Source: an uncultured Granulosicoccaceae bacterium (GTDB lineage Bacteria; Pseudomonadota; Gammaproteobacteria; CALCKW01). From it: a DNA stretch of 53,163 bases. Below the pieces are notes generated by a model. The model saw nothing but the letters and a program-made list of their open reading frames with translations. It had not been told where the DNA came from and searched no databases. The translations under genes were made by a program, and so were the position numbers. The DNA is taken from positions 1 through 53,163 of the forward strand of contig CALAMQ010000132.1 in the NCBI GenBank assembly GCA_937925815.1, read 5' to 3'. This document shows, piece after piece, positions 31,294 to 35,045 of this stretch. Position 1 is the first letter of the stretch; every line of letters begins with the position of its first letter.

Positions 31294-33186
31294 ATGACAC
31301 CCGGAAACCGCATGTTGCTGTTGATCGTCGATACCGACAGCGAGCGCGCTGCGAACATCGAAGCCCAACTGCGACACCTCGGCAGCGCAGTACACGCAAC
31401 ACAATGCGATCACTTGAGTGCACTGGATGCGGCCGCGCCACGATTTGATCTCTGCGTGCTCGCGCTCGACGGCGCGCATTCGCTAGCGAGCCTCGGCCTG
31501 CCGGCACTGCGCGAGCGCGGCCAGGATTGTCCAGTGCTGGTGCTCGGACAGCCGGCCTTCGATTGCCCGCTCGGCGCCATTCTCGCGCACGGCTTTGCCG
31601 ATTGGGTTGGCACGGATGACCCCCTGCACCTGCGCGAGTCGGCGCGTCGAGAGCTCACGACCGTGCGCGCAAAACGCCAGTCGGCGGCGCTAAGGGATGC
31701 GCTGCTGGACAGCGAACGGCGGGTCGAACGCATCATGCACAACACCCGTGACGCGCACGCCGTGATCATCGACGGCGTGCACGCCAACGCCAACAACCCC
31801 TACCTGCGTTTGCTTGACCTGGACCCCGAACACGCCACCGCCACGCCCTTTCTAGACTGCGTTGCAGACCAAGACCGCGACGCCGTGCGCGATTTGATCC
31901 GCCGCTTCTCGCGCGGTGAAGCGACTGATGAGCGCCGCACCATCGCGTTCCGCACATCGGACGGCGACGCACAATCGCTGCACACCCATTTGTCCGCCTG
32001 GGTAGGCGACGGTGAACGCGGGGTACTGGTCAGTCCACAGGCCGTGGAGCCACCCAAGGCTGACACCCCATCGCAGCAGGCAACCAAACGTAAACACGAA
32101 CCGATTGTCACAGCGCCTGTTGCATCAGCCCCGGACACGGCCGCGCCCGACGCGACGGCGCCCGACACAGCGGCGCCCGACACAGCCACACAGCGCGTGC
32201 ATGCGCCTGACGCAGCAGCGCCAGAACCCGTAACACCAGAGTCCGTAACGCCGGCCGCCATCGCCAACCCTCCTGCGCCTCCAGAGCCCAAGGAGCCGGC
32301 GGCGACTCAGAAGACTGAGCCAGTCATTAACAAGCCGCATCCCGTCGGTGGCCTCGCGGCTGAACTTGATGACACCAACACCGGGCCGGTCACAGACGCG
32401 CAAGAGACGCGCGCCACCTCACACCTCAGCCTGTCAGAGCACCGCCGCAGGCTGCGGCACGCAATCAGACACAACCATCTGCGGGTGACGCTGGAGCCAC
32501 TGACCTGCGTAGAAGACTCTTCGACACATCTTTACATCGACACGGCAGCAGATGACAGCCTGCCCGGCATCGACAGCGGCACGGCACTACGCCGCTTGGC
32601 GGACCGCGTCAGCCTCGCGCCGGCATTGGACAGGTGGCAGTTATTTGTCGCAAGCCGGCAAGCAGCCCAACAGTTTGCAGCCAAATCAACAGCCGGCAAA
32701 CGACGTCCCGCGGCACAGGCCACGGTCACGCTGCACGTGCCAATGACCCATCGCGCAATGCATGACCCCGCTCTGCCAGATTGGCTGGCGCAACTGGCTG
32801 GCCAGTACCCAACTATCCGTCACACCCTGTGGTTACCCTTGCGCAGCGCGCGCACCGCACAAACGGAAACAATCTCCCTGCGCGCACAACTCGACGACAT
32901 TGGCATGCGCCTGTGTCTGTACGACGCCTTCCAACACGCCGGCGACCTGCCCGATTTGCGAGCGCTGGCACCGCATGACATCTGCATGCATGCCGGCGTA
33001 CTCGAGGCATGGGCCAACGGCAAGTTCTCCGATGAAAACGTGCAAAGACTGGTCACATTGCTACGCTCACAGGGGACACGCAGCATCAGCTCGACAAGGC
33101 ATGTGGAATTAAGCGAAGAGATAGCGACGCGGCTCGGCTTTTGCATTGTTTCCTCTGCAAAAGCCATCGAATCCGTCGGCGTCTGA
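31294..33186 (+). CDS. degenerate receiver-PAS-EAL signalling protein (FimX-like architecture)
   Basis: 630 residues. Residues about 6-125 look like a response-regulator receiver (LLLIVDTDSERAANIEAQL), but the phospho-acceptor Asp is not in its usual place. About 140-235 resembles a PAS domain (MHNTRDAHAVIIDG...). About 240-345 is a Pro/Ala-rich linker with repeated APDTAAPD units. About 370-625 follows the EAL-domain helix/strand pattern (LRVTLEPLTCVEDSS, VTLHVPMTHRAMHDP, LRAQLDDIGMRLCLYD) without the EAL motif or most metal ligands. It is thus a probable c-di-GMP sensor or protein-protein platform rather than an enzyme. ATG 31294 or 31312 may start it. Divergent from efp. Confidence 0.7.
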   Translation: MTPGNRMLLLIVDTDSERAANIEAQLRHLGSAVHATQCDHLSALDAAAPRFDLCVLALDGAHSLASLGLPALRERGQDCPVLVLGQPAFDCPLGAILAHGFADWVGTDDPLHLRESARRELTTVRAKRQSAALRDALLDSERRVERIMHNTRDAHAVIIDGVHANANNPYLRLLDLDPEHATATPFLDCVADQDRDAVRDLIRRFSRGEATDERRTIAFRTSDGDAQSLHTHLSAWVGDGERGVLVSPQAVEPPKADTPSQQATKRKHEPIVTAPVASAPDTAAPDATAPDTAAPDTATQRVHAPDAAAPEPVTPESVTPAAIANPPAPPEPKEPAATQKTEPVINKPHPVGGLAAELDDTNTGPVTDAQETRATSHLSLSEHRRRLRHAIRHNHLRVTLEPLTCVEDSSTHLYIDTAADDSLPGIDSGTALRRLADRVSLAPALDRWQLFVASRQAAQQFAAKSTAGKRRPAAQATVTLHVPMTHRAMHDPALPDWLAQLAGQYPTIRHTLWLPLRSARTAQTETISLRAQLDDIGMRLCLYDAFQHAGDLPDLRALAPHDICMHAGVLEAWANGKFSDENVQRLVTLLRSQGTRSISSTRHVELSEEIATRLGFCIVSSAKAIESVGV

Positions 33187-33208: not shown

Positions 33209-33261
33209 GCCACTTGACAATACGGATAATTTGGCATAGCTTAAATCTTGATCGTTCGTTC

Positions 33262-33267: not shown

Positions 33268-33294
33268 TAAGTCGAACCATTTTGATGCACATTA

Positions 33295-33345
33295 CGCCCG
33301 ACCTCTCTCAATGCGAGGATTGCAAAGAGAGAATTAGCAAGGGCG
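33295..33345 (+). other. structured leader (nested hairpin) of the Cas6-like gene
   Basis: CGCCC (33295-33299) pairs with GGGCG (33341-33345); inside, CTCTCT (33303-33308) pairs with AGAGAG (33326-33331) and CAAT (33309-33312) with ATTG (33319-33322). It lies in the predicted 5' untranslated RNA between the -10 and the ribosome site AAGGGA (33355-33360). A Cas6-type protein could bind or cleave such a hairpin, giving self-regulation; this is speculation from position only. Confidence 0.4.
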
Positions 33346-33365
33346 TCTGACCACAAGGGACTCTC

Positions 33366-35045
33366 ATGGACGATGATTTCCGGACCGATGAACCAGCACT
33401 GCCGATTGCGCAGCTTCTGCCAATTCGCTCGACAACAGTAACTCTGCAGTTCACCGGCGCGTCGCAGCCAAAATTCTTTCACCAAGCCAGCTTGGCGGCC
33501 TTTGTGCGCCACTTGCTGCGTGAACCCCCAGAATTTGACACCCTGCTCCGAATTCAATGCCTAGAAACGGGCCGCACACAATTTGCGCCCGGCGATCACT
33601 ACAGCTTTTCTATTGTCAGCCTCGCTGGCGGTGAAAACCTGCTCGATGAGCTGATTCGAAGCCTCCAAATGCTTCCTGATTCAGCACTTCGGCGTGAACG
33701 GCGAATTTGCTTCCGCGACAACTTGCGCTTTATCTCGGTCCGCGATGATTTCACCGGCCAACCGGTCAGCGGCATAGAAGAATTATCAGTACTCGACGCC
33801 GATTCGCTGGTCACTATGGCCAGCGACTTGGCGAGTCAAAACGCGAACGGCTTGCGTGTGTCATTGCAATCACCCGTGCGGCTGCTCAAAGACAAGAGCC
33901 AGCGGCTGAATTCGCGCGGTGAATCGCGCTACTGCCACAATGCCGAGGACCTTGAGCCGGCACTGTTGATCAACCGGGTGCGCGACAGCTTTGCAGATTT
34001 GTTGCGCCGACGCGGCTGTGACTACCTGCCGCCGCGCGCGGCAGCGCCGGAAGTGAGTTATCAAAAATCAGACGTCTTCTGGCTGGACGGCATTTACAAC
34101 GACCCAGGTGCACGCGACCGCGGCATGGGCGGCCTGTGTGGTCAGCTCACCATCGACGGCGTTGCGCAGCTCTCTGAAGATTGGTGGCAGCTGCTCACTC
34201 TTGGGCAGTTCACCGGCATCGGCCAACGCACCTCACAAGGCTGGGGTCGCTACTCGCTTGGGGAAGCCGGCACGAATTGGGCAGTGCGCGATGACGTTAC
34301 ACGCAGCACCAGCCCGATTCGGCAAATCGTTGCAGACAAGAATTTGCTCACGGCCTACTACCACTGCCTGTTTGAGCAAGAGCAGCTCGGCCGCGCGGGT
34401 GACTTGAACCCGCCGGAACCGGAACCCGCTATTGCAGACCCCGTGACGGTGTTACGCGAACAGTTCGACGCGCTTGAAGCGAAGCAATACACAGTGCCTC
34501 GCCCGCAGCAATTCACCGCCAGAGACCAACAACCTGTCTCCATTCCGCAATTGATTGATCGCGTGATGCAGCAAGCAACGTTGCAGGTGTTACTGCCGGC
34601 ACTGACGCATTTGCAAGCCTCCGGTCGCGTTCAATCCAACGTGAATGAGCTCGCGCAATCCTTTATTGATTCGCAAGCGCTGCACCGGCGGCTCGAGGCG
34701 ACAGAACCGTTTGCGTCCAGTCGCAGTGCTGCGGCAATTTGTGATGCAAGGCAAGTGGCTACCCATCTCAGTGCCGTTTTTGGCGACGACCCGGTCATGG
34801 AATACATCGAATCGTGGCTCGCGGCCGACGAAAACAATCCAGGCGTGACCCTCGGATCACCCCTTGTGTCATTGGTTGGCCAAGCCATTGGCATGGAGCC
34901 CATCGCCGCTGAAGCGTGGCAGGAGTTGTCTGGACCAGTTCAGCGGCAGCACCACGGGTCTCACCGCGCGAACAAAGGCGTGCGCATTCGGTCGCGCTCA
35001 CCCTACCGCCAATACAACACCAACGCACCAAAGACCGGCACCTGA
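33366..35045 (+). CDS. orphan Cas6-like protein fused to a degenerate reverse-transcriptase-like region
   Basis: 559 residues. Residues about 1-300 read as a Cas6/RAMP domain: FHQASLAAFVRHLL near the start, SPVRLLKDK in the middle, GMGGLCGQLTIDG and the glycine-rich loop LGQFTGIGQRTSQGWGRY (279-296) at the end. Residues about 365-415 resemble RT motifs 0/1: QYTVPRPQ, then IPQLIDRVMQQATLQVLLPAL. ICDAR (458-462) sits where motif A would fall, and GVTLGSPLVSLVGQAIGM (493-510) resembles motif B (GxPQGSPLSPLL). No YxDD follows; a basic tail ends the protein. Cas6-RT-Cas1 fusions are known (Marinomonas type III). Here Cas1, Cas2 and any array are missing. AAGGGA precedes ATG. The Cas6 part is fairly clear; the RT part is less certain. 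Confidence 0.7.
   Translation: MDDDFRTDEPALPIAQLLPIRSTTVTLQFTGASQPKFFHQASLAAFVRHLLREPPEFDTLLRIQCLETGRTQFAPGDHYSFSIVSLAGGENLLDELIRSLQMLPDSALRRERRICFRDNLRFISVRDDFTGQPVSGIEELSVLDADSLVTMASDLASQNANGLRVSLQSPVRLLKDKSQRLNSRGESRYCHNAEDLEPALLINRVRDSFADLLRRRGCDYLPPRAAAPEVSYQKSDVFWLDGIYNDPGARDRGMGGLCGQLTIDGVAQLSEDWWQLLTLGQFTGIGQRTSQGWGRYSLGEAGTNWAVRDDVTRSTSPIRQIVADKNLLTAYYHCLFEQEQLGRAGDLNPPEPEPAIADPVTVLREQFDALEAKQYTVPRPQQFTARDQQPVSIPQLIDRVMQQATLQVLLPALTHLQASGRVQSNVNELAQSFIDSQALHRRLEATEPFASSRSAAAICDARQVATHLSAVFGDDPVMEYIESWLAADENNPGVTLGSPLVSLVGQAIGMEPIAAEAWQELSGPVQRQHHGSHRANKGVRIRSRSPYRQYNTNAPKTGT

Follow-up and report, generated by a model that had tools for sequence, protein, structure and literature searches.

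A Cas6-pseudoRT orphan descended from a Cas6-RT-Cas1 fusion is a candidate CRISPR-free RNA-processing factor

A gene that joins a Cas6 domain to an inactive reverse transcriptase (RT) remnant, in a housekeeping setting of an uncultured Granulosicoccaceae bacterium, raises the question of what became of this CRISPR protein and what it does there. The gene lies at 33366..35045 (+) of the window (the whole 53,163-nt stretch of DNA analyzed). As an earlier note on this DNA had stated, the frame is intact over 559 codons with a good ribosome site: the ORF encodes 559 aa from an ATG start without internal stops, behind the ribosome-binding site AAGGGA (33355..33360, +; CACAAGGGACTCTCATGGACGATG, identical in G001), and full-length orthologues are present in all four genomes sampled for the genus (G000, the window genome, and G001, G002, and G003; all fragmented, 79–99% complete). 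A putative promoter of its own (TTGACA-17-TAGCTT; 33214..33242, +) is conserved in G001 by alignment, and was not called by a consensus promoter scan. The upstream neighbor (31294..33186, +), the same in G001 and G003, encodes an EAL-domain protein that is FimX-like by context. A leader hairpin at 33294–33346 (ACGCCC/GGGCGT plus CTCTCT/AGAGAG) was rejected as an autoregulatory substrate: neither G001 nor G003 conserves it, and its stability does not clearly exceed that of shuffled sequences (z −1.2), so simple autoregulation via this hairpin is unsupported.

The N-terminal ~300 residues, previously assigned to Cas6 with its glycine-rich loop, do carry a Cas6 domain (residues 12–300; 33399..34265, +), recognized by Pfam, PADLOC, sequence matches to 6dd5 and 7kft, and Foldseek. 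The Pfam match (PF10040) scores 25.6 bits, barely over the threshold of 25, and PADLOC calls Cas6 on the N-terminal half with E 3.3e-13. In phmmer searches against the PDB, residues 15–301 match the Cas6 of the Marinomonas MMB-1 Cas6-RT-Cas1 protein (6dd5, E 3.1e-41), and residues 21–490 match Thiomicrospira Cas6-RT-Cas1 (7kft, E 5e-32), so that homology extends past Cas6 into the RT. An AlphaFold model built from three sequences, of low confidence (mean pLDDT 48), was used via its Foldseek hits only; all 28 hits at E ≤ 0.001 are Cas6 or Cas6-RT-Cas1 structures, and the top hits of this weak model, 6dd5 and 7kft, agree with the sequence search. The glycine-rich loop (LGQFTGIGQRTSQGWGRY, residues 279–296; 34200..34253, +), shared by all 20 relatives compared, is kept in the orphans, and the active-site His and Arg of this branch are present: the candidate catalytic residue His39 (33480..33482, +) is histidine, and Arg48 (33507..33509, +) arginine, in 20 of 20 relatives. 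By alignment, Arg48 is the equivalent of active-site R37 in Thiomicrospira Cas6-RT-Cas1, a mapping that depends on a 3-residue shift in the numbering of the PDB chain, inferred from the 7kft alignment; mutation of R37 brings repeat processing down to 12% (PMC8102632). The family profile, the C-terminal loop, and the active-site residues place the orphan protein in the Cas6 family on grounds of both descent and sequence. An Arg-rich block (PDSALRRERRICFRDNLR, residues 104–121; 33675..33728, +) is specific to the orphans, being identical in all four and variable among non-orphan relatives.

Cas6 is followed by a linker (34266..34466, +) containing an orphan-specific conserved stretch (KNLLTAYYHCLFEQ, residues 325–338), which aligns with the beginning of the RT region of the relatives in a profile alignment. 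Within the RT remnant proper (residues 368–510; 34467..34895, +), residues 368–420 retain the fingers motif as DRVxQQAxxQxL (DRVxQRAxxQxL in intact fusions), and residues 461–487 retain the block preceding motif B, as aligned with intact fusions. An RT profile from which the orphan clade was left out, made solely from the RT regions of the other relatives, matches the C-termini of all four orphans (E 2.6e-9 to 4.4e-6, Z = 10,000; best of 100 shuffles, E 86), and the RT-motif-1-like stretch DRVMQQATLQVL pointed out in the earlier note is confirmed. The motif-B-like stretch reported alongside it stands in part: GVTLGSPLVSLVGQAIG (residues 493–509; 34842..34892, +) includes GVTLGSPLVSL, which lines up with the GLPQGSPLSPL of intact RTs; as it falls outside the significant profile alignment, it is only plausible as a motif-B remnant. 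YxDD, already noted as missing, is absent from all four orphans, as is everything downstream including Cas1, and none of the four orphans retains the motif-A Asp, which intact proteins carry within FESD. To judge from these comparisons, the RT-like part is a real descendant of a fused group-II-type RT that has lost all of its catalytic aspartates.

The RT palm/thumb and Cas1 are replaced in the orphans by a C-terminal tail (residues 511–559; 34896..35042, +), basic in character and containing KGVRIRSRSPYR; the last 45 residues of the orphans have a net charge of +6 to +9. The tail includes a basic RS box, GVRIRSRSPYR (residues 538–548; 34977..35009, +), identical in the window, G001, and G002, and represented by VRVRSRG in G003. 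Together with the Arg-rich block and the linker stretch, the conserved RS tail may be a sign of new function.

A decaying Cas6-RT-Cas1 remnant, open by chance, could also have lost its RT active site and Cas1, and could show the divergence seen against G003, to which the RT remnant is 38% and the tail 31% identical, vs. 64% for Cas6. However, each of the four species has a single full-length copy of the gene without stops, at 76, 77, and 51% identity to the window protein in the three sister genomes (range 51–77%), and the tail is conserved. Signs of a pseudogene (relaxed selection, stops, frameshifts) were not found among the four orthologues. The comparison of dN/dS across homologues suggested in the earlier note gives NG86 values of 0.10–0.15 for the whole gene among the three close species, reported for pairs with measurable dS because dS is saturated against G003. 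In these close pairs, RT remnant plus linker (0.08–0.15) and Cas6 (0.10–0.15) are equally constrained, the faster divergence of the RT remnant appearing against G003 only. Differences are in excess at third codon positions in Cas6, linker, and RT remnant, and none of 2000 genes simulated under neutral substitution at 29% divergence kept an open frame. Genuine decay in the same family looks different: fragments in G545 and G565 (L072, L073, and L074) have several stops, and a Cas6 fragment in G179 (L053 7723–8067) is cut to 114 aa. The substitution pattern demonstrates purifying selection, by which decay is already refuted at the genus level, and chance survival of the frame is regarded as very improbable; the gene appears to be vertically inherited within the genus.

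Its setting among housekeeping genes, as first described, is one of conserved synteny. An upstream block with genes for the EAL-domain protein, elongation factor P (efp), an EpmA-like synthetase (epmA), and phosphatidylserine decarboxylase (psd) is common to G000, G001, and G003, and a downstream oxidoreductase to G000, G001, and G002. In its behavior the gene resembles the core genome rather than a mobile defense island. An origin in a defense system, and the occurrence of CRISPR-associated relatives on plasmids, might suggest a guide-free defense protein, that is, a Cas6-type RNase directed against invader RNA. This is scarcely credible for a gene with core-genome synteny that is present in all four genomes of the genus, unlike patchy defense genes, and no relatives were found in phages or viral contigs.

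The earlier note had seen no CRISPR array, cas1, or cas2; there is no array in the window, and neither cas1 nor cas2 was detected in the whole window genome. Whole-genome searches of G000 and G001 with a set comprising Cas1, Cas2, Cas5, RAMP, and Cas10 palm found none of these, and the positive controls worked, with matches in the control genomes plus G050 or G305. RAMP and Cas10 effector genes are absent from all four genus genomes (G050 is positive for both, and G305 for Cas10 palm), and the orphan appears not to be part of a type III system. In G001 and G003, the 18–20 kb surrounding the gene revealed no array. In the relatives G050, Vibrio aerogenes, Thiodictyon, G305, G228, G410, G414, G417, G486, and G568, an array is near the gene. 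A CRISPR-repeat-like element near the window gene was rejected, the best match to the 35-nt repeats of the relatives covering 20–23 of 35 positions with no array, and the window has no dispersed repeat family of note. Local truncation, which the earlier note had considered for the case that homologues are always followed by an intact RT-Cas1 gene, does not explain the orphan: its homologues in the four genus genomes have no RT-Cas1 gene after them, and the Cas6 match is strong. Because the architecture is full-length in all four genomes, dN/dS is 0.10–0.15, synteny is conserved, and no CRISPR partner genes were found in G000, exaptation as an RNA-binding or RNA-processing protein is favored over a decaying fragment, in keeping with the preference first expressed.

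The CRISPR signals of the sister genomes are not type III. G002 has Cas5d, and G003 has a separate compact type II-C-like locus (L017 615–4962) encoding Cas9 (1016 aa), Cas1, and Cas2, without an array on its short contig. Type II-C and Cas5d systems normally do not require Cas6. These signals, the lack of RAMP and Cas10 in all four genomes, and the placement of the gene within a syntenically conserved run of housekeeping genes all speak against the protein being a crRNA maturase that acts in trans on an array and class 1 effector either missed by the drafts or moving horizontally. Such a role is nonetheless suggested by G305, in which the two arrays of a type III (Cas10/RAMP) locus flank a 495-aa truncated Cas6-RT (L049 9591–11078), so that the Cas6 half can apparently suffice; moreover, most type III systems apparently rely on Cas6 supplied in trans (PMC12669027). 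The G305 locus (L049 8731–18817) has no adjacent cas1, and Cas2 and Cas5 of that genome are on another contig. The four orphans form one clade, with support of 100/100 for Cas6 plus RT and 94/95 for Cas6 alone (20 rows), and the G305 protein is sister to the intact G410 fusion (100/100). A truncation shared by the orphans and G305 was rejected with 20 rows (AU p 1.4e-7) and not rejected with 12 rows (AU p 0.41). The G305 truncation evidently arose independently of the orphans, which further weakens the case for crRNA maturation in trans, a role considered distinctly unlikely.

Two further relatives, G414 (L080 6865–9858) and G417 (L078 7580–10228, −), encode Cas6-RT-Cas1 fusions with a degenerate RT active site: YxDD is replaced by TQDK in G414 and the palm is partly deleted in G417, with Cas6 and Cas1 kept in both. 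These fusions adjoin large arrays with the repeat GTCTCACAGCCTAAACGGCATCCCGCCCCTGCAAC. The truncated RT of G305, the degenerate RTs of G414 and G417, and the remnant in the orphans indicate that the RT has repeatedly been expendable while Cas6 was retained; the genus of the window has advanced beyond this stage and lost the type III context too. G420 encodes a Cas2-Cas6 fusion (L079 9641–10927, −; Pfam Cas2 E 1.9e-13, Cas6 E 2.1e-6) with a Cas6 of the same branch and without RT or Cas1; it has metabolic neighbors and no array within 19 kb, and is a second isolated Cas6 derivative.

The orphan has as its ancestor a Cas6-RT-Cas1 fusion from a type III CRISPR adaptation module. It is strongly supported that in the genus ancestor the Cas1 part and the RT catalytic palm/thumb were lost, a short basic RS-containing tail taking their place, and that the type III system disappeared. 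The Cas6 domain would then have turned into a vertically inherited host protein, most likely binding one particular RNA of the cell, unrelated to CRISPR, through a hairpin or short motif in the way of Cas6. Going by its conserved residues, this RNA would be cut in the metal-independent Cas6 manner using His39 and Arg48, with the fingers remnant of the RT and the basic tail possibly serving as a platform for binding RNA or a partner. Its role would lie outside immunity, in the dedicated maturation of RNA or in post-transcriptional regulation. We infer that the protein is probably a domesticated, core-genome, CRISPR-free descendant of Cas6-RT-Cas1 that acts as a site-specific maturase or regulator of host RNA.

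Cleavage may not be needed for such a role. Many Cas6 proteins remain bound to their product RNA, and the Cas6 fold might have been retained as a pseudo-nuclease that recognizes RNA sequence-specifically, the RT remnant and RS tail providing a scaffold. A dead RT site alongside a conserved Arg-rich block and basic tail is in line with RNA binding alone; but His39 and Arg48 are as invariant in the orphans as in the CRISPR-associated relatives, and the Arg-rich block would suit an active enzyme just as well. Binding without cleavage is accordingly judged possible, if somewhat unlikely, beside the proposed domesticated maturase or regulator.

Compared with known systems, the orphan shares with the Cas6-RT-Cas1 proteins of Marinomonas MMB-1 (6dd5) and Thiomicrospira (7kft/7kfu) the Cas6 residues His39 and Arg48, the glycine loop, the linker, and the RT fingers, in the same order. 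Unlike them, it is ~560 rather than ~1000 aa in length, lacks the RT catalytic Asp, YxDD, palm/thumb, and Cas1, has no cas2, array, or effector nearby, and adds the basic RS tail, Arg-rich block, and core-genome synteny. It shares descent with this class and, lacking an RT active site and Cas1, falls outside it. The type III Cas6-RT of G305 resembles the orphan in combining Cas6 with a truncated RT and no Cas1 in ~500 aa, but differs in lying between two arrays with Cas10/RAMP genes, in keeping the motif-A Asp, and in its independent origin. Stand-alone Cas6 enzymes (Sulfolobus, Thermus, Pyrococcus, and Streptococcus) share with it the tandem RRM-like fold and the glycine loop, according to Foldseek with the weak model, but process CRISPR repeats in array-bearing genomes and have no RT remnant. 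Components outside adaptive immunity, or without arrays, are known from HRAMP/ARAMP, the dev operon, CRISPR-associated transposons, and isolated cas loci (PMC8730458; PMC12669027; PMC5294841). These are mostly multi-gene effector derivatives, whereas the orphan is a single Cas6-pseudoRT with no effector subunit found. No precedent for an orphan, domesticated, or solo Cas6 was found in the literature searched, coverage of which mostly excluded subscription journals.

Documented exaptation of CRISPR parts mostly concerns effector complexes and repeats, in transposons, plasmids, and the dev operon. The case here is a single Cas6 under strong purifying selection, with a dead RT and no type III partner detected. 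The states represented among the relatives form a series, from intact fusion, through RT-dead fusion (G414 and G417) and truncated protein beside arrays (G305), to CRISPR-free orphan, in which the RT half is expendable and Cas6 is kept. Whether an enzyme that processes CRISPR RNA can take up everyday RNA processing is a question for which the orphan provides a clean test; if the proposed role is true, one CRISPR processing enzyme would have been converted to normal RNA metabolism.
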